NCBI RefSeq assembly: GCF_963576615.1
Contig: NC_088711.1
Coordinates: 40,854,621-40,918,620, forward strand
Length of the DNA: 64,000 nt
Origin: Watersipora subatra
Taxonomy: Eukaryota; Bryozoa; Gymnolaemata; Cheilostomatida; Watersiporidae
Direction: 5' to 3'
The notes beneath the pieces were generated by a model. It searched no databases. It saw only the letters and a list, made by a program, of their open reading frames with translations, and had not been told where the DNA came from. Shown here one piece after another: positions 625 to 54,700 of this stretch (its first letter is position 1; every line of letters begins with the position of its first letter). Made by a program: the position numbers and the translations under genes.

Positions 625-3600
625 TCACTTGGCTGCAGCACTGGGCGACTCATCGAGTGGAATGGTGTGACACAAAGCATCAGAATGTAGAATATCCTCG
701 GTGGCTGACTCATCCCTACCTGACACCAGGTCATCTACAACTTGAGCATCAGTCTTCTCGGGAGCAGGGAGCAAACCAACTCCGATAGCCTTCCTCAAGT
801 TTCCCTCATCCATCACATCTCCAGGCGCGGCAAGTTTGGTAAGTGATAAAAGTTGATTACTTACTTTGTCGACAGTTTTTTCCTCTTCGTCTGTGATTTG
901 TTGAGCTTTGTCGTTGCTCGGCACGAGTGAGAGTCGATCACTCTGAAGTTTATTTAGTTCTGTTAAATGCTCGGCAGCATTATCAAGGTTCCGCTGTGCC
1001 TGGTCGTTCACTTTAAAATGCTCCAAGAATGATGTATCGATGCCGAGGTCTGCGATAGTTTTTAGAGATTCAAAGTCAATGGCTTCATTTGCTTGATTGG
1101 TGGTAGAAGCTGATTCTACTGCATCTGTGGTAGAGGCAGAGAGAGAAGTGGGACCATCCTTTGATGTCTCATTTCCATCTGTCTCTTTGTTGGTTTTTTC
1201 ACGGTATTGCTCTAATAGCTTCTGAGCCTGTCATGAGAGGTCAAGATGTATCATAACAGCAAGCCAAGGTGTATCATAACAGCGAGTCAATGTGTATCAT
1301 AACAGCGAATCAAGGTGTATTATAACAGCGAGTCAAGGTGTATTATAACAGCGAGTCAAGGTGTATCATAACAGCGAGTCAAGGTGTATCATAACTTGTC
1401 AAGACGTATCATAACAGCGAGTCAAGGTGTATCATGACAGTGAGTCAAGGTGTATCATGACAGTGAGTCAAGGTGTATCATAACAGCGAGTCAAGGTGTA
1501 TCATGACAGTGAGTCAAGGTGTATCATAACAGCGAGTCAAGGTGTATCATAACAGCGAGTCAAGGTGTATCATAACAGCGAGTCAAGGTGTATCATAACA
1601 GCAAATTAAGATGTATCATAACAAATTTATACATATAATAAGAAAGTTTGTGATTCCATTTACATATGCATATTTATTTATCACTGTCTGCCTTCAGCAC
1701 AAGCGCTTTGCAAGTCACTGAAAATGTTTCCAGTGCCTATACAATTTGGTCTATTGCCTAGATAACATTAGGGCAAATCTGCAACAAAAATCGTCTCATC
1801 TTTGCCGTCTTTCCAAATTTTTCTGCCCATTTCATTCCACTAAAAATTCAGCCAACAATAGCGTAAGCTATATTCTGCACGATCCTGAACATCATTATTT
1901 TCCCGCGAGCAATTGACCAAGAGCACAGATATCACGCTATTGGTCGGCAGAAAGGTGATAAAAGCTCTAACTGCCAGAGCGCTGCGACCCTCCTCTCTAG
2001 CATTAGTATGAAACCTATCGTCACTTGATTGATATCAAAACTTGACAAATTCGTCATTGTGAAAAAAAAATTTTGTCGCGAGGTTTTGTTAAAGATGCAT
2101 CCTATTCTGAACTAGACATATTACGTGTTCCAATGCTTCAATTTCAGCTCTTTAAAGTTTTCTCTTTTATAGCATCCTTTGATGCATGGAAATCGGCAAA
2201 ATCTATGAATGCTTGTCCATTTGATGTAAGATTCACCTATAGCGTTTATGAAGGCTCCTTTGCTAAATGAAAACAGTTATCTTTGAAAATCTTAATTGAA
2301 TTCAGAGATATCAGAGGTTTGAATTCATATCAGTTTGCAGTGAAAAAAACAAGTTATTAATTTTAATTCTAAAACCAAAACTCTAATAAACTTCCAAATA
2401 TGAATGAAATCGAGGGAGAAATTTTAGTCATAGCAAACCAACAGGCACAAAATGGATAAACAGGAATTAAAATAATGATATTTTATTAGCGCATGAAAGT
2501 ACTTTTGCTACGGACAATAATCAACTGGAATTTATATAATTTGCTCTGCTACAACCTTCTTAACTATATAGATCCCGCACTGCAAGTATGGCTGCAAAGG
2601 AATGATGACTCCTTTGGGGAATATCTTTGTAGCACAGAAGGAGGAGTATATAAACTGACACAGTGCAATGTTGGGAGTAACTAGGTTTCAAACAGCTCAA
2701 CAGGGTAACTAACAAGTTGCCAGCATCAACACTGAACCCTGTTGACAACGTCAACCTTGAATCCTGTTGACAGCATCAACCTTGAATCCTGTTGACAGCA
2801 TCAACCTTGAACCATGGCAACCAAATCAACCTTGAACCCGGATGACCTTGAACCCTGTTGACAGCTAACAGATAAGCAAAGGAACTACCTCTGTGTGTTT
2901 GTTGCCTGTCCAGATGTTGGCCAAGTCATCAATTTGCTTAACAAGTGCTGGACTGCTGTCAGCCACAAAGGCTCTCAAGCTCTGTATGTAGTCGAGTCCA
3001 TTCTGGGAGCCGTAGAAGGAAAGAACAAGGTCGGACTCCTTCTTGCTGAGAGTAGAAAAGCTTGAGTCGTAGGTAGGTGCTCCGGTGGCGTAGGAACCAT
3101 AGTTAAGGTAGTGGATAGGCTTTGCGTCTGTGAAGTCATCCTCGACCATCAAACTGTCCATGTATGGCAAACCTGGTAACAGAATGAGTAGATGAGAGCT
3201 TGAAAAGAGTGGACAGTTGGCCAGGAGAACAAATAAACAAACAGATAAGTGAACCAGGCAGGCAATAGAGTTAATGGACATCTAACCTGTGGGACGAGTG
3301 AAGGAACGGGTAACATACAGTAGGAGGACATGATGACAAGATTAAGATTGTTGTTATATGTAAGACTTATTTGTAATTTTATAGTTCACAATTAATATTT
3401 TAGCATTTAGGAGTTGCCTCCTCCCTTAATTACTGATATTCAGTTTTGACCTCCTTTTGATACATCTGTTTGCTAGTGTCGCTTGTACTCTTGTTAGCCA
3501 ATCATATGTTAGTGACTCATCACATGTTATAGTGATACCATCTACTATATAAACGGCAATCGTTGTCTGTCTGTCTATCTGTCTATCTATCTGTCTATCT

Positions 3601-6600: not shown

Positions 6601-9600
6601 GCTGACCCTGAGTCTGGCCCGACCCTGCATTCCTTAGTCTCATTCCAGCTCTAGCTAAGAAAACCACTGATTCCTTCTCTCTTCTTCCCTTCCCCCTTAT
6701 CAGGAGAAGAGGAAAAGAGAGAAGGGGGATAGGAGAGGGGGTAGCAAATAAAGCCCTGATGGCTCATGATTTGCGTGCAACATTTCATAACTTGTATAGT
6801 TTTAATCTATGGTGGTTATCAGATAATATCACAGAATCGCTTTGGTTCACTGGATTATGGATCCAAGAAGGTTTTTATGTGAAAATAAATGTGATTTCGT
6901 CACCTTCTCCTCATTAGCTCCATTGTTAACAACAGTGCAGTCAAGCATTAGGCATACAATGACGTAACGTCATTCTATTTAAGTCTGACAGGCTTTTTCC
7001 CTATTGGCCAATCTAGGTTTATATATCTACATGTATGAGTGATACTCATTCACCTTGCGTTCTGTTCTCTACCTGGGTGGTCACAATAAAGCTTGCTTGA
7101 CTAAAAAACTAGTTTTCAAACTCAATCAGAGATATGGTGGGAGGGTGATGTGGGTGTAAGGGAGTAGATAGACTAGACAAGGTGAGTGGGGTGAGAAGAC
7201 AAGATCAGATGAGTTGGGTGCAGGGGACCTAAACAGGGGAAAATGACTAGAATGGGATGGATAGCTATGTGACTCCGCTACATAGACTCCACTATAAACA
7301 TGTAGCTAAGAAGAATGTAAAATGGAGGCAGGTCAATACAAACTCATGGTAGATGACTACTTGTAATCGAGCTGATTAGATATCTGTTATCATACGTAAG
7401 CCACAACCATAGACAGTATTAGTCACCTAAACTGACTGCAAGAGAGAGGGGGAAATGAGTAGGATAAGATGGATTGGGTGAGAGTTGGTTAGGATGAGTA
7501 GGATTACTTGTGTGGAATGCTGTGATCTTCAATTTAGATTAAGTAAAAATGATGGAAGTCCACAAACCAGCTATGAATTAGCAATAACAAACTTCTCTCC
7601 CCGTGTCTAAATATCAGTCACAAATAGTTTTGGAACCAGACATCCTTCAGTTGCAAATGTAATTTGTACAGCCAAGTGGCTCTTCATCGTTGGTGATATG
7701 CAAAGGATAGCCTTAGTTCCAACACCACCAAAACAAAGACTGACTAGCAAGATTCAACTTTTAGCCTAGCGACACTATTGGATAAAGTACGAAGTGTGGC
7801 AACCCAAACCCCCCCCCCTCTTACGTGGGGACAAAAAACAAAGCTTACCGGCCTTCAGCTTGCCTACTTTCTCTCCCAGGGTTATGACTCTCTCCGTATC
7901 ACTAATCTTGCCCTTGTTGTCTGGGTTGAGAATGTTGAAGGTCGTAGTTCCATCCTCACTCATCCGCAGAAACCCCATCTTAGAGTGACGCTGTTTCTTA
8001 GCGAGATGTTCCTCAGCTGCTGCCGCTCTCTCCTGAGGCAGCATAAACATTAATATGAAAATATTTGACAAATGTGATGTTTTTTTAATTGGCCATCTTA
8101 TTGGTTGCTACATTTTGAAATGTACAAGAAATCAGTAAAAGGAGAGTAACTGATGGGCCATAGCTAAGTCAGCAGGTCGATTTTCGATAGTCAGCAACCA
8201 ACCACAGCGACCCTGTCTTAAGTCACCCAAAGAGATACTACTGGCCAGATATAGACCTACACAAGAAGCAAATAAATACTAGCATATTGCCATGGGGTAA
8301 CTAAGCAGGGGTGACAACTCTCAACAATTCATATGGGATTCCAATTCAGAGATTATTAATGTGCTGCAAGCCTTGACTATCCAATGCACAAATGTGTTAG
8401 TTAAACATCCATGTACTAATCTTAGTGAGTCATTATCAGAGCGTTAGCGGTGACCTATCAAACAGCAAGAAATTACTAAAATTGCTAGCCTATGTATCTG
8501 AATTATAGATAGCAGCTGTCAAAAATACTCATATCGAGGCCAACAATCATGTTGCAAAAGGAATTGTAACTTTATCAGCCAAAGAAAAATCTGATATTTG
8601 TAATGAAAAAATTTCACTATTATTGAATTATTCCTCTAATTAGAATTTTTTGCATATCATTAAAAGCAAAACAGTTCAATAAAAAAAACGTGTGATAGAG
8701 ATTGTGTGCAGAAAATGTAATATATTGTAAATGTTAGTCCGTATTAGGCAACTGACAGAGCGATTAGTTTTCCCTATGAACATTAACAGGTGTGTCTATG
8801 TCTATGTAAATAAATGAAATGAATCATTTTTGGAATTTAAGCCATTTGATAATGTGGAAGGGAACCAAAGTATGAAAACACAAGGATCATTACTTCGTAA
8901 CGCCAATAGATACGCCTTTCTTTGTATGCAAGTACTGAACACCCTCCATAGACTACTCGCTACCCATTCATATTTTAGAGTTGAAAGACAAAGTACTGTT
9001 CATTTTATAATGACCTAGTTAGAGTCAATTTAATGAATCATGTCATGGTTGGGGCATAATCGACATCCTATAAGTTCACATTATCGCTATTCACTAGAAG
9101 AACATATACATACAGTGAAACTCGGATAACTCAAACTTCAAGGGACCGAGCAAAAGTGTTCGAATTATCAGAGTGTTCAAGTTATCAGAGCACTGTCACA
9201 AGTCCATGTATTTACTTATTTATTAGTAGATACATGAACGTATACAAATTATAATATAAATCAAAAGCACAAATGGCTTGTTTCAAATTAAATGCTTTTA
9301 ATGTAAAGTTTAAAACGTTTTTATCAAAAAGTATAGAGATTTTTCTATCACTTGAGATTGGTTTGTTGTTTGAGGTGATGTTATTGCCAGGACGTTTTTT
9401 AGATTGACATTGGCAAAACTTGATCGTTGCTGAAATGCTCAAAGAAAAGACATCTTTTTCTTTTGAGCGTTTTACCCACGATCAATTTTGCCAATCTTTC
9501 TTGAAGTTTATGGAAAGATTACCTTACTTTACCTGGGATTCGTTAAGAGCAACACTCCGAGGCAGTTCAATTAAAAGTTTTACGAGGTTTTACGGTACAT

Positions 9601-12600
9601 TGTATATCATTCACGCTTTTTGAATGGATACTTATTGAATGTACACACGTATTTTGTGTTTAGGTCAAACGATGAATAGGTTTTTTAGTTTAGACAACGT
9701 ATACGTTTGACTACAACAATTTTTAAGACGTTTTAAACATTCAACATTCCGACGTTAATTCAACACGGAATCAACATCGGAAAACTATTCATCAAGGGCT
9801 AGCCGGGTCACGCACTCAAGGATTTTCGCCACGCAAATACAAAACAAAAACAACATGCTGTTTTTGTTTTGTATGTGCGTGGCGAAAATCCTTGCGCCCG
9901 TGACCCGGCTAACCCGTGCTATTAATTGTATAGCAGTATAAATCAAATTTCACCAAACCTTTAGAAAAGTCGTTGACAAAAATATTTTGCCGATGGAGGT
10001 AATAACGACGCTTATGAATTACGAAAAGTTGAGGTTTACCTCTATGGCTTGGAATAAAGTGATTTTCTAAAGCGATAGCAACCGTTTCGGTAGCCGTTGG
10101 GCAAAAAACAGTTCGTTATAACAGTGTTGAATTCGAGTTATATAGAGCCATTTATCATTGCATGGGAACGGACCAAGCAAATCCAGTCGAATTAACCATG
10201 TGTTCGCTATATCCGAAGGCGAGTTATCCATGTTTCACTGTATATGTAGTTGTTCTCTATTAGAAGGAAACCAAAACCTTGGCTATGGCGATTATGTCCT
10301 TAGCAGGCAAATGATCCGGAACAGGTTCAAAGGTCAAATAGGAGTTGTTATCTCTCTGTTTCTTCTGAGCCCGAGCAGGGGCTATGTAATCACTGGCATC
10401 AACATCGATATGAAGGGACAACTCGGCGTCTGTCAGTGAAGACATTATTGGCTGGTTTTTCCGTAAAGAGAGAAGACGGTCTTTGCTCAGTGTTCTCATA
10501 GCGTATTCTAGTAACTTCTGGGCAGCCTGCATGAATGAGGAAACAACTCCAACATAAAATAATTCAAGATTTACATTCACAAGGTAGTCTTGTATTAAAC
10601 CTTTTAAAAATTTTATGTGTTATTTGCAGCTTTGTCAAACAATGTATACATCTAATTATTTAGCCTAAATATAGGCAAAACGTTAGATTTACACAATGAA
10701 ATCTATATACATAATTCTCAGTTTGTGTTTGTCCTTCGGTATGTCTAGTTATAATAGTTATTAAAACCTTGGAATGAAGAATCCGTGAAGTTCTGAAGAA
10801 CTCAGAACTTCCGATTACCCGGACGATATGCTAAACCATTGCGCTACCCGAGATTGAGGGATTCAATGGGCGATACATGTCGCTATGTGAGTGAAAATAC
10901 GCTACCGCTCTCCGTTACGGGGCAACATCATTCTATGTATTAGTAGATGACTAGCTTACTTGAGTTATCCATTGGCAATGTGCCAGGCTAATAGCAAGTA
11001 GCATTGTTTATAAGCTGAGCTTATAAGTGGGGCATCGCTATCACTGCTTATAAGCTGATTTTTAATACCCGTGCAACGCAGGACATTCCGCTAGTTAATC
11101 TATAAAATCCAATAAAATCTGTTATAAGTTATTTATGGCATGTATGTATAATATTGCATTGGCAATGATAATCACCGACAAAATGATGTTTTTCGGTACA
11201 TGTCAAAAAAAAATTAAAAAAAAAAGAAATCAGGAATTATTGAGAGAGTTGAACAAACGTGTTTTAAAAGTTGGTAATCTAATAGTGATGTGGGCAAAAA
11301 ACCTGCTTAAAAGCTTTGTGATGTCTTTCTGATTGTAGCCACATTTGTTAAGTTCGCAGGTTGAATATCATGGATTGTGTATATTATGGCTTGTATAATC
11401 CCAATACTGTAGATGCTGTAGGGTTAGTCAGGCTAAATTACATAAGCAAAGGACTCAACAGTAGTTGAAGATAAAATGATGGATAACAGGGTTATTATCA
11501 ATCAATTTTATATTTCTTTATCTATTTGGTAGATCGGGATTGTCATTACCGTCACTTTACCGAGTGAAAACAACTCCAACATCATTTGAGACTTCTGGCG
11601 TTGACTCAACAAATTGATTGAATAATCAGACTAAACCTAGAGCAATGAGTAGAAGCTTAATAATTATTATGAATTTCAATTTAAAATTCCATAGTAATAT
11701 TGCTGTGACCCAGATCTTCTTTCCACATTGTTGAATAGTAAACAAAGGTAAGACAACTAGCGAGAGACTTGAAATCCTCAAACCGTGTGACACAAGTGGC
11801 AAGTATTCTAGCTCTGCGCAACAACATAAAATAGTGTCAATTGGAGAGACTTTACAAAAAAAAACATGAAACAACCAATTACAAAAAATTGACATTTCAC
11901 CACAGGACACCATGAAATAGAAATTTATACATAGTCGTTAACTCTTTCGCTACCAACTTAATTTATTGACCAGGACACAATTATATGTTCGGTAAAACTT
12001 ATTTTTTCACAAGACCGCATATATGTTGTCAATCTACATCTAAAAATATATTTTTTCAAAGTTTGTGTATTTGTAGGATTGATTGTCCGGCTATAACAGA
12101 TCTTAAAACTTTGGAATAAAGTTTCCGTACTGAAGAAGAATCGATCTCAGGCCCTGCCATTCACCAGTCTGACACCCTACCCACTAGACTACAGAAATCG
12201 AATTACTAGCTAGCCAATATAAGTCATTATATGAGATTGAGAGACCCGCGTCATATGCTTTGCATACGATGCGGGTCATAGCATAACGTCATGAGAAGCT
12301 GTTCGCTCACATTATTAAACTGGCTAATAGCAAAAACTCTCACTACTTCTCATTGTTTATAAGACAAAACGCTTTTCTCATGATATGTAGTTTGATAGTT
12401 AGAATGGCAAATGTTGTAATATGTTAAATACAAATCAATTTTTTGTCCAAAGACTTTTCTATTACCCGGGCAACGCCGGGTAGCACAGCTAGTCATTCAA
12501 TATACTTTTGAATCAGATGGTCTATAAAAAATAGCAAAATCGTTGTAAAATTTTACATCAGCTGATGCCTGGAAAACTTTTTCATGATATGGCATTGTTG

Positions 12601-15600
12601 CTATGACCGTGAGAATGTTCGAGTCAGATAAGTTATCAATATCATTACAGCTTACGGCATTATTATTACTGTAAAAATAAAATAATCGCTATTAGTATTA
12701 CTATTGTTCAATAAAAGTCACCCAAAGTCCACAGATCTAAAATTAGTGAAACCTTCGTAGATGTAATGCCTCTGACAGGACTGGTTATTACTAAGAATTG
12801 CGATAAAAAGTGATGTATTTGCAAAGCAAAACTACGATGAGGGTGAGTTGTAAACATACTTTCTATTGGCTCAATGCATGCAAATAATTGTTTCCTTTTG
12901 TTTAAGTAGAGATATGATTGGCTAATTTATTACTTATTCGCTAATAAGAAACATTTTGTACAGAAACTACTAAAGCCACATCACGCGGTTCTTGGTCAGA
13001 TGTAAACACCAAGCCATAAGACGCAGCTCATGGTAGCAAAAGAGTTAATGCAGAGAGAGAAGAAGAGGTAAGGCATATACTTGAAGAGGTAGAATCAAAT
13101 AGATACCTTGTAATATATGGTATCTGGATGATTTTAGCAGTTAATGCAGAGAGAGAGAAGAGGTAAGGCATATACTTGAAGAGGTAGAATAAAATGGATA
13201 CCTTGTAATATATGGTATCTGGATGATTTTAGCAGTTAATGCAGAGAGAGAGAAGAGGTAAGGCATATACTTGAAGAGGTAGAATCAAATGGATACCTTG
13301 TAATATATGGTATCTGGATGATTGTAGTTCATAGCATTGACACATATGAGCTTAACATCTGCCTTGTATTCCATGATATTCGTGTAGACCTTTCTGTCTA
13401 TTTTGTCCTTCATTGTGCTGAAGTCCATTGGGTGCTTTATTACCTGCAGGAGGATGTCAGTAAGTCTAACTGGACTCAGGAATTCTAGATGTTTAGGCTT
13501 GAGCAGACAACTCCATACATATCTAAGATTTCCATGAAAAAACGTGACTTGATACGACACTACAGAAGTTTATGAATGCCGGGTTTAAAACATTCAATGA
13601 TTTGAATCATGATTGAAATCATTAGTTTTTTGGAAAAAAAATCACGATTTTTCGTAATTTTACAAAAATCAGTGCTTCTTGACGAACAATCTTGTTTTGA
13701 TCTATTTGTAACAAATCTGTAAACACGTTTTTGTCATGAATTAGAAAGTGTGATGGAGATAATTGCCTGCATGTGTAGTACGATGCTACAGAAAGACCTT
13801 TAAAGTTATGAGCTACATGTATGAGTTTATTTAGTAAATCTCAAAGGAGGAATAATTGTGAGTACAAACTGTAACAAGTACAGTTTTCCCTCAATACTTT
13901 GTTTATTAAATGACATCAAACTCTTTTACTACAATCAGCTCAAGTGTAAGCAACTTCCAATTTCGGCTTCATTCATTAAAAAATGGGAAACCAGCTAAGT
14001 ATTGAAAAAGCAGGCAAGCTGGTACGTATATTTCCATCATGAACCGCATCAATCATACTAAGGACGAATGTGCTTAAATATTTCACAGCGACTTTTTATG
14101 TCTTTTGGATCTCATTCGTACTTTGTGTGAAACTGCTAGTAGCTCTACTCTACTAACTTACATGTAGTTTGCACATTATAATTTTATATGGCTGTTGAAT
14201 GCAAAAAATATAAGGATTTGTCAAATTGAAGCATGCAACAGTAAAGTGGGGTCAGCAGCATTTGTGCAATGCATGTAAATTGTCCATGAATGTGCAATGC
14301 AATTCATGGACAATTTACATGAACAAAAAATAAGCAAAAAATCAAATTTATTTAAATCAAAAAAATTTAAATTTTTGCGAAAAAAATCCTTATTACCCAA
14401 CCCTGATGCAGAATACTCACACGACTATAGTCTGGAGCGATCAGATCATTGATGGGAAATGCAAAGAAGTGCTGATTGTCTCTTTTCTCTATAAGTCTAT
14501 GCAGATATAGAAGTGTGTCCTGAAGAGCACTGCAGTGCGGTTTAGGGGAGAGGGGGCGGTGCCGATCCCTGAGGTTTCGCTCGGGTGGGACAAAATCTGA
14601 AGCAGTCAGTCTCACAGAACTCTCTAGAATGATAAGCAGGCAGAGATGACGAACACACAGCATGGTAATTATGATTATTAAAGTATCCAATCCATAACCA
14701 TCAATATCATTAATTCATTTCAAATACTCGACTCCACCGAAATATGCCCGAACTTCCTGTACTAAGATACTATAACTAAAATAACACAAACATTTGCATC
14801 ACAAGTCACAATAAGGGTATAAACTGCCTGGTACACAGATCACAACACAACTCCACCAAGCTGTGAATATATAGTTCTTTACACAGGCTATCTTCTGTGA
14901 AGAAAGATGGTGTAATATGATTTTTGGGCAAAACTAACAGGTTAGACAACTCCTTTGTCTTTCATCTACACAAAAAAGATCGTTGGCCCTTCGCCTTTAA
15001 CACTTTAGTTAGTTAGTAAATCATCATCGTCAAGCCATCACCAGCCAATAAGAAGGCTGCATTGTATTTTCATGCAGCAGTCAATGTCTCCACAGTAAAA
15101 AACATCAACTCTATGACTAGCACTGTAATTTGCATGTGTTATTCAAAATCACCGCCCATGATACCTGCTTCAAGATTATTATGATGCTAATACACATGGA
15201 AAATATTTTTATTGAGAGCACAATTCCTTATTTGTAAGGTTTCATCACTCATATAAATACATTCTGAATAAACACGACTTGCGTATAACAAAATACTGTT
15301 GGTTGCAGGCATTCCTGTGCATAATGAATTTCATCCTTGTTGTCTTTAACTGGAAATCATCACTACCTTAGGGGCACAATTAGATATCCTAAAAGTTAAA
15401 TTTTATTCACATCTTCCTAAATTTTATTTTAGCGCAAGAAAGTGACATAAACCTAATAAAAAGATAACTCACCTTTGCGAGTCGGAGGATTAGCAGGAGA
15501 ATGCTGACTATGCGTGGCGTTGCGAGATTTCTTGGCAGCAGGTCGACTGGCATCATCATCAGAACTGACAACCGAAGCGTTCGGACTAGCTGGTTGACTG

Positions 15601-15698
15601 CTGGCATGTTCCTGAGCACTTAGCTTCAGAACCATTTTAAGGGTACTGGAAGAGTCAGCGTGCTCCTTGCGTGATCTCTTTGAACTACGCTTAACCAT
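625..15698 (-). CDS. BRD7: Bromodomain-containing protein of the BRD7/BRD9 family, complete, 7 coding exons
   Basis: Coding exons in transcript order are 15473-15698, 14421-14623, 13297-13443, 10278-10526, 7849-8032, 2889-3172 and 625-1227. All are bounded by AG/GT and the phases agree, giving 631 residues (human BRD7 is 651). The start MVKRSSKR opens a basic Ser-rich region containing the family's MVLKL motif. The bromodomain lies at about residues 108-205: FFAFPINDLIAPDYS in exon 2, then VIKHPMDFSTMKDKI and NAMNYNHPDTIYY in exon 3, with the acetyl-lysine-binding Asn at about 184. The BRD7/9-specific DUF3512 region follows: DGTTTFNILNP, then KPIHYLNYGSYATGAPTYDS, which is closer to BRD7 than BRD9, and near the C-terminus APGDVMDEGNLRKAIGV. 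In known animals these proteins are subunits of SWI/SNF remodelers (BRD7 in PBAF, BRD9 in ncBAF) and read acetylated histones in the nucleus. Invertebrates usually have one BRD7/9 gene, so the choice of symbol is by resemblance. Confidence 0.93.
1237..1620. repeat. 23-bp minisatellite, about 16 copies, beside the last-exon acceptor
   Basis: Tandem copies of a 23-bp unit (core GTGTATCATAACAGCGAGTC) with point variants begin within about 10 bases of the splice acceptor of the last bromodomain-gene exon (1228-1230) and run into the intron. On the transcribed strand the array therefore supplies the sequence where a branch point and polypyrimidine tract are expected. Confidence 0.9.
2700..2870. 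repeat. Short degenerate minisatellite (about 26-bp unit)
   Basis: About five or six imperfect copies of a unit with core CCTGTTGACAGCATCAACCT lie immediately downstream of the donor of exon 6 of the bromodomain gene (2887-2888), in intron 6. The last copies are degenerate. Confidence 0.75.
3540..4000. repeat. Probable dispersed repeat with TCTG/TCTA microsatellite, internal duplication and hairpin
   Basis: In intron 5 of the bromodomain gene. It has a CTATATAAACGGCAATCG leader, a (TCTG/TCTA)n tract at about 3560-3605, a roughly 70-bp segment containing TTATAGAGCGGTCTTT and CCGAATTAATATG present twice (about 3612-3685 and 3700-3765), and an imperfect hairpin at about 3920-3960 with arms around CGGCA/TGCCG. 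The leader and microsatellite resemble non-autonomous Helitron-type elements of invertebrates, but no clear 3' CTRR end was identified, so the class is left open. Confidence 0.4.
4540..4932. repeat. Purine-only GA-rich low-complexity tract
   Basis: About 390 bases of almost pure purine on the plus strand (GGGAGAGAGA-type units with AGCGAGGAGGAGAGGGG islands repeated about four times). Long open frames on both strands are by-products of the low complexity. It lies in intron 5 of the bromodomain gene, just left of an inverted-repeat element. A mirror-repeat purine tract of this kind can form triplex DNA; that is inference. Confidence 0.92.
5031..7030. mobile_element. 2.0-kb element with about 350-bp inverted terminal arms, carrying a BED zinc-finger frame
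   Basis: The left arm (5031 to about 5380) is repeated in reverse complement by the right arm (about 6715-7030) with scattered differences. Both outer ends read GTAGATATATAAACC inward. Arms share a palindromic CRE-like TGACGTAACGTCA in the right copy, an ATTGGCCAAT box and a TATA-like end. The inner edges are C/T-rich (CCCCCTCTCCTATCCCCC). The interior contains a BED finger frame at 6002-6298 and no recognisable catalytic region. No clear target-site duplication was seen just outside the ends. A hAT-type element reduced internally is the favoured reading. A pair of oppositely oriented solo repeats around unrelated DNA is possible. It lies in intron 5 of the bromodomain gene. Confidence 0.65.
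6002..6298 (+). CDS. BED-type zinc-finger open frame, probable transposase fragment
   Basis: The frame starts MPVVWEFMKKP. Residues about 3-48 form a BED finger: VWEFM core, CTIC (Cys-x2-Cys), then LLRHLQRGHPEE with the paired His. BED fingers bind DNA and are typical of hAT transposases and of ZBED genes domesticated from them. About 40 unrelated residues follow before the stop, and no catalytic or dimerisation domain is found downstream, so this is a lone first exon or a remnant. It sits between the two inverted arms at 5031 and 7030, which supports a transposon origin. The frame is also open upstream to about 5957; ATG 6002 is chosen because the finger begins right after it. Confidence 0.6.
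   Translation: MPVVWEFMKKPVKKGKYQVICTICESKLSYKEKSTSILLRHLQRGHPEELKSVSMNLQSSKFILFLVSFTNTRSFREVDFCFPICWVIHFYICKVFLN
9113..10240. mobile_element. Pogo/Tigger-like Tc1-mariner element, non-autonomous, TA-flanked
   Basis: The left end CAGTGAAACTCGGATAACTC is mirrored by GAGTTATCCATGTTTCACTG at the right, and both ends touch TA dinucleotides (9111-9112 and 10241-10242), the expected target duplication. The following AAGGGACCGAG segment is typical of pogo/Tigger termini. At 1.13 kb with no DDE transposase frame, it must depend on an autonomous relative. The interior has two inverted structures: a foldback at about 9401-9498 (arms around TTGGCAAAACTTGATCG) and a nested hairpin at 9801-9910. It lies in intron 4 of the bromodomain gene. 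Confidence 0.8.
9801..9910. repeat. Nearly perfect 110-bp hairpin (foldback MITE-like)
   Basis: Arms of about 53 bases, starting AGCCGGGTCACG and ending CGTGACCCGGCT, pair almost completely around ACATGCTG. The inner part is A/C-rich (ATACAAAACAAAAACA). It is nested in the pogo-like element at 9113-10240. Similarity this high between arms suggests recent formation or gene conversion. Confidence 0.85.
10698..11098 (-). mobile_element. tRNA-related SINE, family A copy 1
   Basis: Read on the minus strand, it starts AACTAGCGGAATGTCCTGCG near 11098 and carries GCACGGGTATTA in place of the family's CCCGGGTAATA. A tRNA-like part with box-A-like GGGTAGCGCAATGG lies around 10810-10855, and it ends near 10700 in an AT-rich TATATAG tail. 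The block TAGCCTGGCACATTGCCAAT is shared with the copy at 47.1 kb. It lies in intron 3 of the bromodomain gene. Confidence 0.7.
12040..12495 (-). mobile_element. tRNA-related SINE, family A copy 2
   Basis: On the minus strand it begins ACTAGCTGTGCTACCCGGCG with the inverted motif CCCGGCGTTGCCCGGG (about 12466-12481), then AAAGTCTTTGG. The tRNA-like part (GTAGTCTAGTGGGTAGGG, with box-B-like GAGATCGATTC) is at about 12130-12200, and the element fades into AT-rich sequence near 12040. It also contains a perfect foldback around 12247-12278 (GACCCGCGTCATATG). It lies in intron 3 of the bromodomain gene. Confidence 0.7.
13075..13325. repeat. 95-bp tandem triplication including the end of bromodomain exon 3 and its donor
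   Basis: The segment ATACCTTGTAATATATGG recurs at about 13103, 13198 and 13293, an exact 95-bp period. The linking sequence is AGAGAGAAGAGGTAAGGCAT and TACTTGAAGAGGTAGAAT. The third copy is the real 3' end of exon 3 (codons for HPDTIYYK) plus the donor AAG/GTATCC. The two others lie downstream in intron 3 and keep the same donor sequence with only isolated substitutions. Confidence 0.9.
13577..14405 (-). mobile_element. hAT-like non-autonomous element, copy 1
   Basis: On the minus strand it starts CAGGGTTGGGTAATAAGG, followed by an A/T-rich terminus. The other end, CCGGGTTTAAAACATTC near 13577, is an imperfect inverted match. An internal palindrome has arms CATGTAAATTGTCCATGAA (about 14272-14318). 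Copies of the same family occur in opposite orientation at 61.0 and 63.0 kb, sharing for example GTACTTTGTGTGAAACTGCT in reverse. There is no transposase frame and no convincing 8-bp target duplication. It fills most of intron 2 of the bromodomain gene and ends only 14 bases from the exon 2 donor. Confidence 0.65.
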
Positions 15699-17821: not shown

Positions 17822-20590
17822 GCAATCTATCTATCTATCTCTGTAAAATATTTCAAGTGGCCGCTAGGCCTGTAGAAATAAAATGGTGCATTAGGCATAA
17901 AAATAAGATCACAAATAAGCATAGACTTATTTATCTAAGACTGAAGGATAAAAGTATAAGATCGCTTGGTCTAGTTATAAGAGAATCAGATGTTAAAATT
18001 TCATCGCACGGTTAAAAAAAGAGTGTTCCATCGCACTTGTATTGATTGTGTGTCTGATATTGGAGCCTCGAGTAAAATAGGATGAGTTCTTAATTACAAA
18101 TCTATTAAAATCGACCATTAGGTCTTGGCTTAAAATTTTTTGCAGTGTGCTTTCGTCCTTGATGCGTCTTCTCTCTGCAAGTGTTTGCCATCCCATTTTC
18201 ACCATTTCTGATGATATACTATCAAATTTTCTTAAATTGTTGGCCCACCTAAAAGCTTTTCGGTTAATGGACTCTAAATCTTGTATACTATAATCAAAAT
18301 GTGGACTCCAGATTTCCGAAGCGTACTCTAGCAGTGGACGACACACACTATAGTATGCTGTCCTTTTGACATTAGGAGATGTTTTCTTAAGGGTCCGCAT
18401 AAGCATAAAAAGAGTGCCGTTAGCCTTACGTATGATGCGATTTATGTGTTCATTAAAATTGAGGGTGCTAGAAACAAGTATACCCAAGTATAAAAAGGAT
18501 TGCGAGGATACAAGAGATGTACCGCAATAGTTGTATATATGTGAAAATCTAACTGGTTCCACAGATGTAGATGTGCATTTATTAGCATTAAATCTCAACT
18601 GCCACGACTCAGCCCATGCAGCCACTCTGCACAGTTGGTCCTGTAGCAGAAGGCTGTCGGACGCACATTCTATTGGTCTAAAAAGTATGGCATCATCCGC
18701 AAATAAACGTATGGATGTCTTTGGACAGTTCAGAGACTCTGGAAGGTCATTGATATATAAAAGAAAAAGCAAGGGTCCAAGCACCGACCCCTGGGGCACA
18801 CCTGATGTTACCTGGGTAGGTGGAGATGTTTTACCGTTAACTATGACACAGAATGTGCGGTCCAGGAGCCAGTGCTGTATCCAAGTCACTACATTTGCAT
18901 TTAGGCCATAACTTCTAAGTTTGTGGATCAATTTGTCATGCGAAACTGTATCAAACGCTTTACTAAAATCCAAAACAAGTACATCCACTTGAGTGTTAAG
19001 ATTATTAAAATTTGCCAAGTCTGATATGGTGTGTATAAGTTGAGATTCACAGCTGTGCTTTTTTCTAAAACCATGCTGTGTTTCACTTAGGATGTTATTC
19101 TGATCGAGATAATCTCTTATGTTATGAGCAATAATATGTTCTATAACCTTAGATGATACGCTAGTGAGTGATATTGGCCTATAGTTAAGTGGGGCCTTCT
19201 TGTCACCTTTCTTGAATACAGGGACTACATTGGCATGTTTCCAATCAAGTGGCACACACCCTGTGTTGAGGGAGTGTTTAAAAATCAGCGTTAAAATGGG
19301 AGCAATGTCAACAGCCAAAAACTTGAGCAAGGCAGGACTAAGGTTGTCTGGGCCCATACCCTTACGATGGTTAAGATTATTAAGAAGGGCCAAAACTCCC
19401 TCTTCACTGACAGCAATGTCCATTTGGGGTACATGTTCTGCACTAGATTGAGTGAATGATACTTGTGGGACGTGTCCATCGTCTACAGTAAATACGGACT
19501 TAAAATTGATAGCAAAACTTATGGCCATATCGTTGTCATTCACACAGTTATGTAATTGCATAATGTTTGAACAGTTTCCCCCTTTTGAGGATTTAGATAT
19601 AAGCTGGAAAAGAGGTTTGGAATCGCCATTCTTAAGGCTTTCAGTAATATGGGACTCTAAAAATTTATTATAATCTCTTTTAATAAGGCGTTTAGATAGA
19701 TTACCAATGGACTTTAGTTGTTCTAAATTGTGGCTAGTAGGGTAAGCTTTATAGGTATGAAAAAACCTTCTCTTTTTTCGGCAAACTGTTTTGGCTTCCC
19801 TTGACAACCAGAATTTTTTACCTTTGGGTTTACGTACTGGGATGCATGAGTTAGCTATGTTTAAAATAGTGTACTTGAATGTGTTCCATAAAAAATCTGT
19901 CGTATTTGAAGCTTCAATAAACTGGAGATGTTTGTAAAGGTGGGCTGTCTGTTCGCTTATGTCAGACATCCGAGCCTTACCAAAGTCAAAAAGAGTTTTA
20001 GTAGTGCGAGAAACTGGGGGATCAACCTGTGGAAAAAAACTAAAAAATTCAAAGCACAGTGCTGTGTGATCCGACATTCCAACATCAGCGTTTTTAAAAA
20101 TAGGGCAGGGATCAAAATTTGTAAAAATAAGATCAAGTGTGTTGCCTTTAGAGTGGGTAGGGAAGTTTACATGCTGCGAAAAGTTATTTTTCAAAATAAA
20201 AGACAAAAAGCTCTTAGCAAGTCCACGACCCCCTGGAGAGACGGCCGGCGTGTCAAGGGTCCACTGGATTTCAGGAAAGTTAAAATCTCCAAGTAAGACA
20301 AAATTGCTGACCAGGCTGTCCTCAAAAAAATCAAAAAGTGCACTCATCTTAGCTGAGCTCGGAGGACGGTAGTAAGTTACTACACAAACACGAAACCCGT
20401 GAACAGACAAATTGATCACAAGCATCTCCTCATTAGGATCCACAAAAGAATCAAATATCTGAACCCCTTTCAATGATTTAATAGCGACTAAGATGCCTCC
20501 GCCTTTAGTGGGGCGGTCTCTGCGGAAAATTTCGTAGTTTGGTAGTTTTAGTTCATTGCTCGAAACCTGAGGGTCTAAATGGGTTTTCAT
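17822..20590 (-). mobile_element. CR1/L2-like non-LTR retrotransposon (LINE), 5'-truncated
   Basis: The body is the open frame at 17993-20590, followed on the minus strand by a roughly 170-base 3' UTR ending in a (GATA)n microsatellite with flanks near 17822-17843. Short tandem repeats rather than poly(A) at the 3' end are typical of CR1/L2-clade LINEs. The 5' end is cut inside the endonuclease region, the usual result of incomplete target-primed reverse transcription. There is no ORF1. The uninterrupted frame suggests a young insertion. It lies between two minus-strand genes in the same orientation. Confidence 0.9.
17993..20590 (-). CDS. LINE ORF2: endonuclease plus reverse transcriptase (865 codons, N-terminally truncated)
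   Basis: The frame runs from MKTHLDPQ to NRAMKF with no stop. Residues 1-190 are the apurinic-type endonuclease minus its first strands: FRRDRPTKGGGILVAIK, VVTYYRPP, LLGDFNFPEIQW and the catalytic MSDHTAL. Residues about 440-720 are the reverse transcriptase: VVPVFKKGDKKAPLNYRPIS, LDFSKAFDTVSH, SGVPQGSVLGPLLF and the active-site FADDAIL. A C-terminal region with LLEYASEIWSP follows. The protein nicks target DNA and copies its RNA there. Normally the endonuclease has about 30-50 more residues ahead of THLD. Here the sequence just upstream hits an in-frame stop five codons away, so the ATG is probably fortuitous and the copy cannot make a complete enzyme. Confidence 0.93.
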   Translation of the reverse strand: MKTHLDPQVSSNELKLPNYEIFRRDRPTKGGGILVAIKSLKGVQIFDSFVDPNEEMLVINLSVHGFRVCVVTYYRPPSSAKMSALFDFFEDSLVSNFVLLGDFNFPEIQWTLDTPAVSPGGRGLAKSFLSFILKNNFSQHVNFPTHSKGNTLDLIFTNFDPCPIFKNADVGMSDHTALCFEFFSFFPQVDPPVSRTTKTLFDFGKARMSDISEQTAHLYKHLQFIEASNTTDFLWNTFKYTILNIANSCIPVRKPKGKKFWLSREAKTVCRKKRRFFHTYKAYPTSHNLEQLKSIGNLSKRLIKRDYNKFLESHITESLKNGDSKPLFQLISKSSKGGNCSNIMQLHNCVNDNDMAISFAINFKSVFTVDDGHVPQVSFTQSSAEHVPQMDIAVSEEGVLALLNNLNHRKGMGPDNLSPALLKFLAVDIAPILTLIFKHSLNTGCVPLDWKHANVVPVFKKGDKKAPLNYRPISLTSVSSKVIEHIIAHNIRDYLDQNNILSETQHGFRKKHSCESQLIHTISDLANFNNLNTQVDVLVLDFSKAFDTVSHDKLIHKLRSYGLNANVVTWIQHWLLDRTFCVIVNGKTSPPTQVTSGVPQGSVLGPLLFLLYINDLPESLNCPKTSIRLFADDAILFRPIECASDSLLLQDQLCRVAAWAESWQLRFNANKCTSTSVEPVRFSHIYNYCGTSLVSSQSFLYLGILVSSTLNFNEHINRIIRKANGTLFMLMRTLKKTSPNVKRTAYYSVCRPLLEYASEIWSPHFDYSIQDLESINRKAFRWANNLRKFDSISSEMVKMGWQTLAERRRIKDESTLQKILSQDLMVDFNRFVIKNSSYFTRGSNIRHTINTSAMEHSFFNRAMKF

Positions 20591-21444
20591 TTTAATGAAC
20601 GACTAAAACACCAATATAATAGTCATCAAACCTTTCACCTCCTAGGATGTACGAACAAAGATGAACAAATTGAAACCAATTTTGATCAAAGCCCGTAATC
20701 TATACCATGGCTAGCGCTGAAGTACAAAGGTAAATCTAAGTCTCATTCGACGCTTAGGTAACGCACTATCTGTCACACCGAATCCATTTACACAAAAAGC
20801 GGGAGTTATCATTTCTGTTAAACATACCTGTGATTGCTGGAAAGGGGCAACAACTTCGGTATGAACAAAAGTATTTTGTTTTGTTAATGTATTGTAACAC
20901 AGATTTTTTCTAATTTTTACGTAACTGTTTTTGAAAGAAGACCAGTTCTTATGTAGCAGTAAAGAGACTACACAAGTGTTTTTTTACTTAAATGATATGC
21001 AAAAACATTGTTCTTTTAAGTTGCAGCGCATTTTTGCATTCCTTTGAGGGTTTCACAAATGTTTCCTGATTTGTAAGTTTTGTAGCGCAACTGCTAAACA
21101 TCACAAAGCTTTTTAGCTAATTTTACCGTTTTAAAACTTTAAACAGCAGAAACATGTATTTTAAAACCTAAATAATGCAAGTAAACAAATAAGCAAATAT
21201 AAATATTTACAATATAAAAATATATTATCTTATTTCATCTATATTTTTTAAAAATATAATATTTTAGCACAGCGAATTTCAACATAGATGTAGTAGTGAT
21301 TTTCCCATAACCCATCAATCAAAATAGTATTAGTGTGATAGAAACCTCAGCTCACCATTGAAAATAAAAGGAAGACACTGTCATGGTGAGACAAACAAAA
21401 GATCACACTACCAATATCAGTGGCTTTTTCACAAACTGATTCTG

Positions 21445-48728: not shown

Positions 48729-51700
48729 TTATCTGCGGGAAGGCTTACGTCGAGTTGCCCAAAACTCTGTTCGCCGTTTTTCAGCTTTGTCCAAAAGTTC
48801 GTGAGCCAATACACTAGATGAACTGGCTAAACTTTGCATTGAAGAGGACAGAACGCTTCCATGGGACAAATCCTTATCACCTCTACCATTTGTCTTCTTT
48901 ATTCCACCTATGAATATTCACATCAAATCATCTGTATGTCAGATACCAATCAAAACTAGAACAAGATTAATCCGTCAGCATATGTAAGCCAACAGCATTC
49001 AGCCAAAAGATTGCCTGTAGTCTACAGGTTTTCACAAGGCAATTTTGTCCTCTCAGTCATACTATCGCATATAGTAAAGCATTTCTGTCAACAAAGACTA
49101 AATTGCTGAACATGGAAAATTAAGGCTTTTGCTTGCCATAACAAAGGGTATAAAGCAGTTTTTGGACTAAGACTAAAACCATCTAGCTGTCAAACTTGTG
49201 AACAACCACAAGCAGCCCTGACAAGTAGTACAGTCCTTTATATGTACAGCCTTTGACTGCAGAACATCGGATATTTTTTATCTACGCCTATTCTGTCACT
49301 TATATTTATACAAAGACTTGATGAATGCCCAGCATTGCCCGGGTAATAAAAAAGTCTTTGCACAGAAAATTTATTTTTATTTAATATACAACAGTTACCA
49401 TTTTAACTTTCAAACTTTATATCATGAAAAAAATGTTGGGCAGTTCCAATAAATTAAAAGAATAATAAAACAACTGTAAAAGTTTTCAAATTTTTTCAAA
49501 CAACTATAATTTAAATTTCATACCATGAAAAAAGTTTTTTGTGCAATTGAAATAAACTGAGAGAAAAAATAAAACAACTGTAAAGGTTTTTAAATGTAAA
49601 TGTGGAATAATTAGCGAGTGATGGTAAAATAAAATCGGCTTTGTTATGATTACAATGAAAAACTATTCGGTACACAATTATATGATTTTAATTCATTTCA
49701 GTGTTGACATCGTAAGGCGAAAATTTCATATAGAGTGGTATAGAAATCCGTAGCAATTATCTAATGCAAACACTCCCTGGTAAAAATCATCAAAATTTAA
49801 ATACATACATACTGTAGATATTAAAAATTGGGAACTAAAATAACTAAAGTAAAGTAACTAAAGTAACTTTAATATGTATTTTACTAAACTTCAACTTTGT
49901 CATAACCTAAAACTTTATCACCCATCTGTTTTCGGTTTCACGATAACTTATAACGAATAACGCTGAGTTAAGATAGAGAGTAAGTGAGCATCGTATCTCT
50001 TTCAAGCGTTGTGGGAGTGATTTTAGTGAATAGCATATCGGCATTTTTGTTATTACGCCGTAATCAGTACACCGACAGGCAAATTTTAATTTGAAGAGAA
50101 ATTTTGTTAATATATTGTGGGAGAGAAGTCAAAAAAAAATTTCGTCCTTTTGTAACGAGTACAAAAAACCCTTGTTTTTCACTTTTCAAGGCGAAAAAAA
50201 TCTTAGAACATGGGCATTGCAACCCAAGGGCACACTGTATTAAGTAATAATATAGCCTGTCCAAAGGGTATACAGTATATGGTATGAGCAATAAGTGGGA
50301 TAAGAACGGTTTAACCTTGTGGTTACGCATGTTTGTTAGGGTATACAGTATATGGTATGAGCAATAAGTGGGATAAGAACGGTTTAACCTTGTGGTTACG
50401 CATGTTTGTTAGGGTATACAGTATATGGTATGAGCAATAAGTGGGATAAGAACGGTTTAACCTTGTGGTTACGCATGTTTGTTAGGGTGTACAGTATATG
50501 GTATGAGCAATAAGTGGGATACAAACGGTTTAACCTTGTGATTACGCATGTTTGTTAGGGTATACAGTATATGGTATGAGCAATAAGTGGGATACAAACG
50601 GTTTAACCTTGTGATTACGCATGTTTGTTAGGGTATACAGTATATGGTATGAGCAATAACTGGGATAAGAACGGTTTAACCTTGTGGTTACGCATGTTTG
50701 TTAGGGTATACAGTATATGGTATGAGCAATAAGTGGGATAAAAACGGTTTAACCTTGTGATTACGCATGTTTGTTAGGGTATACAGTATATGGTATGAGC
50801 AATAAGTGGGATAAGAACGGTTTAACCTTATGGTTACGCATGTTTGTTAGGGTATACAGTATATGGTATGAGCAATAAGTGGGATAAGAACGGTTTAACC
50901 TTGTGGTTACGCATGTTTGTTAGGGTATACAGTATATGGTATGAGCGATAAGTGGGATAAGAACGGTTTAACCTCGTGGTTACGCATGTTTGTTAGGGTA
51001 TACAGTATATGGTATGAGCGATAAGTGGGATAAGAACGGTTTAACCTTGTGGTTACACATGTTTGTTAGGGTATACAGTATATGGTATGAGCAATAAGTG
51101 GGATAAGAACGGTTTAACCTTGTGGTTTCGCATGTTTGTTAGGGTGTACAGTATATGGTATGAGCGATAAGTGGGATAAGAACGGTTTAACCTTGTGGTT
51201 ACGCATGTTTGTTAGGGTGTACAGTATATGGTATGAGCGATAAGTGGGATAATAACGGTTTAACCTCGTGGTTACGCATGTTTGTTAAGGTATACAGTAT
51301 ATGGTATGAGCGATAAGTGGGATAAGAACGGTTTAACCTCGTGGTTACGCATGTTTGTTAGGGTATACAGTATATGGTATGAGCGATAAGTGGGATAAGA
51401 ACGGTTTAACCTTGTGGTTTCGCATGTTTGTTAGGGTGTACAGTATATGGTATGAGCGATAAGTGGGATAAGAACGGTTTAACCTTGTGGTTACGCATGT
51501 TTGTTAGGGTGTACAGTATATGGTATGAGCGATAAGTGGGATAAGAACGGTTTAACCTCGTGGTTACGCATGTTTGTTAGGGTATACAGTATATGGTATG
51601 AGCGATAAGTGGGATAAGAACGGTTTAACCTCGTGGTTACGCATGTTTGTTAGGGTATACAGTATATGGTATGAGCGATAAGTGGGATAAGAACGGTTTA

Positions 51701-54700
51701 ACCTTGTGGTTTCGCATGTTTGTTAGGGTATACAGTATATGGTATGAGTGATAAGTGGGATAAGAACGGTTTAACCTTGTGGTTTCGCATGTTTGTTAGG
51801 GTGTACAGTATATGGTATGAGCGATAAGTGGGATAAGAACGGTTTAACCTCGTGGTTACGCTTGTTTGTTAGGGTATACAGTATATGGTATGAGCGATAA
51901 GTGGGATAAGAACGGTTTAACCTCGTGGTTACGCATGTTTGTTAGGGTATACAGTATATGGTATGAGCAATAAGTGGGATAAGAACGGTTTAACCTTGTG
52001 GTTACGCATGTTTGTTAGGGTATACAGTATATGGTATGAGCAATAAGTAGGATAAGAACGGTTTAACCTTGTGGTTACGCATGGTTAAAGACGCGCGATT
52101 AGACTGTCACAAGTTCCAATACGAAGGTGACTTTTCGATGGTAAAACTTTATCGCTACCCGACAGACAAACATTAAGATTTATATAGAAGATAACATGAA
52201 AATAGACTCGGAGTCGTCCTCTTATAACAAGTCAATCAATACAAGTCGTTTCTTACATCAGCTTCAATGGCTAAAAAATGTGCACATCTTTACATGCACT
52301 GAAATTCTCACCTGAAGAGTGGAGTTGTCTCATCGGGATATTGTAAGTCTCCGCTGCGCCTTCCATCAATGGTTTCATTCCTATAACAAGTGCAATGAAT
52401 TGATCAATATATAGAGAAGGGTATATAGAGAAGCATAATAAACTATTGTAGAACCAAATTGCTGCCAAATTGTCATCCTACACCATGTAAACTTTAACAG
52501 TAGCATTTATCAGTTAAAAGAGATAACAGCAGCAGTCTACGCATTCAGCAAAAATGGTTTTTGGGGAGACAACTTTACTTTATGAGTAATAATTTCCTCA
52601 TGGAACAATTTTTATTAATCAATAGCATACTAGGTGCAGGAATGCAGTCTATCTGCTATAGCTATTTAGCTGGCTATTCAACAATCTAAACAATTTAATG
52701 TTTTTGGGCAAATCAGTTCTCAGAGGCTTCTGAAGAACTTCATTTCAGATCGCCTATATTCATCTTAAAAATGGTCTTCATTATATTGATGGCGGCATTG
52801 TCATTGCACCCAATGCTTTGAAAATTCAAACCTACTGAGCTAAGTATACGGTGCGCTACATCAATATTTCTATTTACTGACTTATTGAATTGATTATCAT
52901 ATCCATCTCTGATGAAGTATTTATAACAATTCTAATAAAAGGTACACAGGTAGCAATCTCGTTACCTGCTGGTGAGCTCCTCTTCTTGCTTGGGCTACTT
53001 AAGTATTTGGAGAGCAGCACATCGTCATTGTCAGCAGTGTCATCCAGAAGGTCGTGCGTGTCATCTGTTGGTTTTCCAGCCACTGGAGAGATCGAATAGG
53101 ACGAGGTCACTATTGAGCCTTTTTTCGCTGACTCTTCCACTGCCGCCTCATCCTATAATAAAGTTTGTAACGATGGTAAAAGAAAGTTTTATTATAAAAG
53201 ATCACAAAAGTCATATACAAAATCACTGGTTGGGTGTTACCGTTTAAAAAATTTTTTATTTGTTCACCATTATAAATGGTTTGATTAGCTACAAAATTTT
53301 AACTGCTCATTGAGGTGGGTTAGTGAAAGTACCTTCATACAATAATTAAATATTTTCTGCTAGAACCAGGGTTATTTTGACTGGTTCTTAACCCCCCATA
53401 TGATTAGTGTATACACGTTGTGGCCAGTAGTCTGCAGTTGCCTCTTTTCCAGCTCAATTAGAACAACAATTAAACTTCACCAGCAGTACAGATGCACGTA
53501 TCAGTGAAGCAGACAAAAAATAAACCTACTAGATGAGATTTTGCGGAGACGCAGTCGCATCTATCTGAGAGAGGAGTTGGCTTGGTGGTTTGGACAGCAG
53601 GTACATATGATGAAGACCGCATATCTTCATGTTCTGTAGAGTTGCTTTGCTTTTGCTCAACTTGCTCAGATTCGCAATTCTTTGCAACGGAGGGCTCCAG
53701 CGTATTAGTTTCAGAATGCCCAGACCTGATGCTACGCACCCTGCAAGCGTCACTCAAAATCATGCAACAAAGTCAAAAAGGACGTCCAAATTTGGTAATC
53801 AAACAAGGTGGCTGTTATAGAATAGCATGAACTAGATCATCAAAAGTAACACAAATTTTGCGCACGATTAAACGGAATGTAAGAGAACTGGTAGAAAAGA
53901 AGGAAGAGTGAGTGAAAATCGGTGACAAAAAGAAAGATAGAAATAACTGATTCGAATGAGGGCAGTTATCGCAGACTCTGTAATATGAACTTGTTAGCAT
54001 CAAATAATCATTAAAAATCATGCCAATGATGGAATTAGCAGACTTATTAATAATTTCGTTCACGCAAATAAACAAGCAACTGAATTTAGGGCTGCTAAAA
54101 TCATTCACTCCAAATTCATTGGGTAGTAGATGCCTATGACTTGAGTGTAATGTGTCAGAAGCAATTAAGAAGTGACACATGTCAGAATTCAAAAGAGGGT
54201 ACTGTGGCTGAACATTCAGGTAGATGACAAGTATCAAAAAGTTCAAGCAAATGAAAGTCAGAATGTTTACACAAGTGGCAGGTGTCAGCAGGTAGTTGTT
54301 GGCTTCTAACAGCTTACGTGTCAGATTCACTGGTTGATCTGGAACCATCACATGACCACGCTAGCCTGTGGGTGCCTGCTTGCTCAGTGACAGATTCTGG
54401 AGGGCGATGCTGGCTGGCCGATGACAATAAAGTGGACTTTTCAGTTTCCGTGGACTGTTTATCTAGCACTAACTCTGACAGGCTGCTCGCTATGGATGAG
54501 GTATCCCAAAGCTTAGCTTGAGTTGCCAATAACTGGCCCACGTGTTCTCGGCTGAAATGCATTCCCCGTGCACGCTTCCTGTTAATGGACATAAACACGT
54601 ATAAATCTAGAATCACTGATAATAAAAAGTTTTAGTCTTAATATAGGTCAAATTTTTACATAACTTACCGATATTCCTCAGCCTTTTCTCTCAACTCTCT

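Follow-up and report, generated by a model that had tools for sequence, protein, structure and literature searches.

The 5′ splice site of exon 3 in the BRD7/9-type gene of Watersipora subatra lies inside a 95-bp unit that is present three times in tandem, and the two extra copies carry the exon end and its donor into intron 3. The copies differ at few positions, only the first donor keeps the reading frame, and a like arrangement was found at three other donors; the exon 3 arrangement is not unique in the genome. Quite probably it is a minisatellite of recent origin that by chance extends across a donor, with extra donors that would be spliced away and an array that would be nearly neutral.

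The gene is located on the minus strand of the window, i.e. the whole stretch of 64,000 nucleotides analysed (NC_088711.1, positions 40,854,621 to 40,918,620), and its seven exons join into an open frame of 630 amino acids, in which the exon 4/5 border was picked with the aid of a human sequence. A bromodomain is followed by DUF3512, the order typical of the BRD7/9 family, and the best solved chains for the bromodomain (PF00439, 4.1e-15) were those of bromodomain-containing protein 9 (7e-18). Genome-wide, PF12024 (DUF3512) produced two matches only, both in exons of this gene, which speaks against a paralogue; this is the only BRD7/9-type gene found in the genome. Since the 630-aa frame is intact and DUF3512 occurs in no other gene, the first donor (D1) would have to work often enough. 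The exons (in the spliced frame), intron 3 and the repeat copies are as follows.

15474..15698, minus strand: exon 1, start codon at 15698
14421..14621, minus strand: exon 2
13297..13443, minus strand: exon 3, 147 nt, part of the bromodomain (PF00439, 4.1e-15), ending in HPDTIYYK, phase 0
13231..13323, minus strand: first copy of the repeat, comprising the 27-nt end of exon 3, donor D1 AAG/GTATCCATTTG and the intron start; first intron base 13296
13136..13230, minus strand: second copy of the repeat, intronic, with donor D2 AAG/GTATCCATTTT; first intron base 13201
13043..13135, minus strand: third copy of the repeat, intronic, with donor D3 AAG/GTATCTATTTG, altered at +6; first intron base 13106
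10527..13296, minus strand: intron 3, 2770 nt
10278..10526, minus strand: exon 4, starting AAQKLLEYAM directly after YYK
7849..8032, minus strand: exon 5
2889..3172, minus strand: exon 6, DUF3512 (PF12024, 1.3e-25)
625..1227, minus strand: exon 7 with the stop codon

Tandem Repeats Finder, run on the window, returned an array at 13043-13327 with period 95, 3.0 copies, 97% matches and a score of 540, in agreement with the threefold unit that the first-pass annotation had read from the sequence. By period and identity the array is a minisatellite (tandem units of about 10-100 bp, high identity). The 95-bp unit takes in the terminal 27 nt of exon 3, the donor and 68 nt of intron; the shared exon end had been given as roughly 28 bases (it covers 13323-13297). 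On the minus strand, AATCATCCAGATACCATATATTACAAG/GTATC plus the next intron bases is the element repeated three times, with copy 1 as the true exon 3 end and copies 2 and 3 in intron 3. The spacing between copies is exactly 95 and 95, as expected from the claim that the extra copies lie 95 and 190 bases deeper in the intron, and the first intron bases are each one position below the donors annotated near 13297, 13202 and 13107. The donor had been described as intact in both extra copies, which holds for D2 (GTATCC, as in D1) and fails for D3, where one base is altered at +6 (GTATCT).

Aligned to copy 1 over 88-89 nt, copy 2 has a single substitution; copy 3 has a single substitution and a 1-bp indel, and also departs at the final aligned position, which coincides with the boundary of the unit. 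Because the copies are near-identical, the array is likely to be young. Copies 1 and 2 have the same indel state and both unit junctions are identical in sequence, and copy 3 may therefore be the oldest and the step to three copies a separate second event. The original exon and intron breaks possibly shared a 4-nt microhomology, CTAC. Expansion would have begun with a tandem duplication with its left break within the final 27 nt of exon 3, its right break in the intron, copying the exon end together with the 5′ splice site, and a second round of duplication would have given three copies.

The array stretch matched once in a whole-genome search of 239 contigs (783,720,542 bases), in which very common words were skipped. 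That the triplication is an assembly artefact, which the first-pass annotation had named as grounds for abandoning its reading, is unlikely, because the copies have private changes and the assembly was built from HiFi reads at about 39-fold coverage with QV 63.2, as given in the section of the assembly report used here (PMC12902671). According to the same section, the published assembly has 783,752,486 bases in 240 scaffolds (longest 79,350,317, N90 46,061,466), and an alternate haplotype (GCA_963576605.1) and an RNA-seq run (ERR11641139) are named for this species (PMC12902671).

Of nine processing outcomes enumerated, a single one, the splice joining D1 to the acceptor at 10527, stays in frame. 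The other eight, seven splice combinations using D2, D3 and the CAGs within copies 2 and 3 plus full retention, add 17, 34, 95, 112, 190 or 2770 nt. No added length is divisible by three, and the products of these eight stop after 194-244 of the 630 residues, upstream of the last exon junction. The stop that had been thought probable after use of a downstream donor is certain, as translation runs YYK-VSI-TGA and ends at the fourth codon past D1. The early stop upstream of an exon junction that marks a poison exon or NMD target is found on these products as enumerated, not as observed.

In the likeliest reading the array is tolerated because the upstream donor wins. The first donor met in transcription would be used in most transcripts, the two further donors would lie inside the intron and be removed with it, and the cost to a nearly neutral array would be some misspliced, degraded mRNA. 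A designed library with copied donor sequences points the same way, although in human K562 cells and not in a bryozoan: in the part of that study drawn on here, identical tandem donors were used mainly at the first site, and acceptors did not follow this rule (PMC6783452). D1 is the site we infer for most transcripts of the BRD7/9-type gene. Against a first-donor rule, older in vitro work reportedly found that SF2 activates proximal (downstream) 5′ splice sites. A duplication straddling a donor leaves a usable first donor, at small cost if the first of equal donors wins, and one straddling an acceptor would place a false acceptor first; short tandem duplications should therefore gather across donors more than across acceptors.

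Arrays spanning the exon end were present at 3 of 64 sampled donors (95% interval 1-13%), with the locus described above uncounted. The sample comprised 27 myosin, 17 ion-channel and 20 kinesin donors, small numbers from three gene families picked for convenience. Two of the arrays were in myosin genes, 43 bp x2.0 at 100% (L038, 356-443) and 31 bp x2.3 at 89% (L050, 1235-1304, minus strand). The third, in a kinesin gene, was 32 bp x13.8 at 90% and included the last 16 exon bases and the donor (L079, 40-481; G000:C2:4345912-4346353); by hand count, its 13 downstream units kept GT in five and had GA instead in eight. In the ion-channel stretch L069, a 30-bp array begins roughly 20 nt past the donor and excludes it; this stretch was not counted as donor-spanning.

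Of 75 myosin matches, 66 were entered and nine lay outside the fetched stretches. Spliced alignment gave 31 myosin intron pairs, from which 27 were kept (three dropped for a margin below 6, one for a misplaced donor); some kept margins are small, and the acceptor paired with the duplicated L038 donor looks doubtful. Four further myosin exons, three of them in the wrong orientation, were left out of the counts. Among the ion-channel stretches 17 of 20 were used, three having too little donor-side sequence, and several of the 17 extend less than 300 nt on the donor side, where copies could be missed. In the ion-channel and kinesin sets the myosin-derived matrix located the donors, a few of them at low scores; those of L069 and L079 were set by hand from the sequence, as automatic placement fell on wrong GTs.

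No acceptor in the myosin sample was spanned by an array (0/27), and the difference from the donors (3/64) is not significant (Fisher p = 0.55). When 20-mers were searched for a downstream copy within 400 nt in the myosin stretches, one was found for 2/27 donors, 235/3323 intron positions (7.1%), 1/305 exon positions (0.3%) and 0/27 acceptors; donors (7%) thus have such copies at the intron rate, not the exon rate. In the BRD7/9-type gene the same search found 1/6 donors, the exon 3 donor itself, and 0/6 acceptors. Arrays of period at least 15 and match at least 80% covered 0.2% of bases at -60 to -30 around the 64 donors, 2.7% at -30 to -10, 4.7% at -10 to +10 and 8-15% from +10 to +400; around the 27 acceptors the share was 8-10% in the bins from -300 to -30, 1.3% at -30 to -10 and 0% from -10 to +60. 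Coverage at donors (4.7%) is about half that deeper in introns, and donor-spanning arrays may therefore be mildly selected against. The predicted asymmetry of donors over acceptors fits these measurements, which come from small samples of three families chosen for convenience.

Repeats are also dense in general: 20 myosin stretches, some of them overlapping, total 155,820 bases, and arrays of period at least 40 and match at least 90% cover 3.1% of these. This density and the arrays across other donors support the neutral, repeat-copying alternative that the first-pass annotation had offered. A search of the literature with the full set of terms minisatellite, exon-intron, splice donor and tandem duplication found no paper joining them, which is not proof of absence from print. 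Further arrays were seen in the BRD7/9-type gene. One of 23 bp and about 17 copies (1240-1623) ends about 12 nt before exon 7, and its unit has CTTGAC, which is branch-site-like; the exon 7 acceptor is therefore preceded by an array of possible branch sites. Another, of 25 bp and 5 copies (2716-2846), begins in the intron, about 40 nt past the exon 6 donor. Elsewhere in the window, 50265-52083 consists of about 25 tandem copies, 97% alike, of a 73-bp unit, and an 869-aa open frame with reverse transcriptase and endonuclease domains (17996-20602, minus strand) is probably a non-LTR retrotransposon.

It is conceivable, but rather improbable, that donor-anchored minisatellites form a recurrent class, at several percent of donors (3/64) and with up to about 14 copies, in which copy number would act as a heritable splicing rheostat tuning the amount of productive mRNA while acceptor-spanning arrays are purged. 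About equally doubtful is a costly segregating allele, i.e. a polymorphic array in which use of D2 and D3 lowers output and which persists by way of normal haplotypes. The few base differences between copies, indicative of a young array, would suit such an allele, and so would k-mer completeness, which at 69.65% for the primary assembly against 98.05% for the two haplotypes together suggests high heterozygosity (PMC12902671, in the same section); however, other genes also have donor-spanning arrays, at a rate only a little below that of introns, and this speaks against generally strong harm.

Still less likely is a poison switch, in which regulated use of the extra donors would yield stop-bearing, degraded transcripts and so tune the level of BRD7/9 protein. 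All eight outcomes other than the D1 splice are predicted to end early, and with DUF3512 found only in this gene the reading gains some appeal; the first-pass annotation was right about this consequence, and regulated use is hypothetical. Against it, the like arrangement occurs in myosin and kinesin genes, unrelated to this one, at a frequency no higher than the intron rate, the near-identical copies mark an array too young for conservation to be shown, and the third donor has drifted.

The notion of U12-type donors in tandem, possibly with 17-nt microexons between CATCCAG and AAG/GTATCC in copies 2 and 3, is very improbable and was largely dropped. Under an approximate U12 matrix, which makes the U12 numbers rough, D1 and D2 both rank in the top 6 when 127,982 positions of the window are scored; TGCATTAACT is present in copies 2 and 3, its branch A 18 nt from the would-be exon, a match as good in 1.6% of 7814 AGs; and minor spliceosome RNAs are found in the genome (U12 112.5, U6atac 100.4 and U11 99.4 bits, all above the cut-off). 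The donor GTATCCATT matches the first six positions of the U12 consensus RTATCCTTT and mismatches at +7, and, given the genome's own donors, the odds are against the type: 8 of 27 myosin donors score below D1, as for an ordinary major-type donor, and calibration on these 27 put the posterior for U12 type at 3-15%. The weak branch site at the true acceptor lowers it further, where the best match to the consensus TTCCTTAAC was TTTCCTCATT (score 1.83; 4.2% of simulated U12 sites are that low). As a major acceptor, the CAG of copies 2 and 3 is no better than the median AG (a fraction of 0.49 of 3654 score as high), which tells against the microexons. Under a major-spliceosome matrix built on the genome's own donors, D3 has a small edge over D1 (7.97 vs 7.58), a point against preferred use of the first donor. 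The exon 4 donor of the BRD7/9-type gene is very weak (GTTTTG; 10278, minus strand), weaker than D1, and six bases on (10271) GTTTCCTTC is a U12-like alternative. The U11-48K zinc finger had two matches in the genome, and this domain occurs in other proteins too. A literature search found no paper pairing BRD7 with 'U12-type intron', which does not prove absence, and the main text of PMC7367187 and of PMC6717393 has no word starting with 'BRD'.

Among known systems, the locus is like a minisatellite or VNTR in its head-to-tail, near-identical and young copies and in the density of such repeats in the introns of this genome, and differs in a unit that bears an exon end and a donor. As in tandem alternative 5′ splice sites, one acceptor faces several donors of almost the same sequence; the present donors are natural, 95 nt apart, out of frame and putative as alternative sites. 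Introns can arise by tandem duplication of an AG/GT sequence, and one study reportedly treats tandem duplication in Drosophila; here too duplication copied splice signals, but no new in-frame intron results and the copied CAG is a poor acceptor. The motifs of the USSE, a U11-binding splicing enhancer, are laid out in tandem a few nt apart. The repeated GTATCC-like motifs recall this enhancer as described, in the part of the source used, for the U11-48K and U11/U12-65K genes (PMC5473595), and the spacing of 95 nt, the different gene and the unsupported U12 identity separate the two.

The locus is probably best filed as a minisatellite that includes a donor; an effect of the extra donors on expression of the gene has a low probability. 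Taken alone it is an ordinary repeat in an awkward place, and its recurrence across donors matters more. Natural, near-identical donor copies allow an in vivo, construct-free test of how the spliceosome chooses between equal donors, and the same set would show whether donors tolerate duplications that acceptors do not. For W. subatra, the arrangement seems to be a by-product of repeat richness that the genome tolerates, not a dedicated switch.
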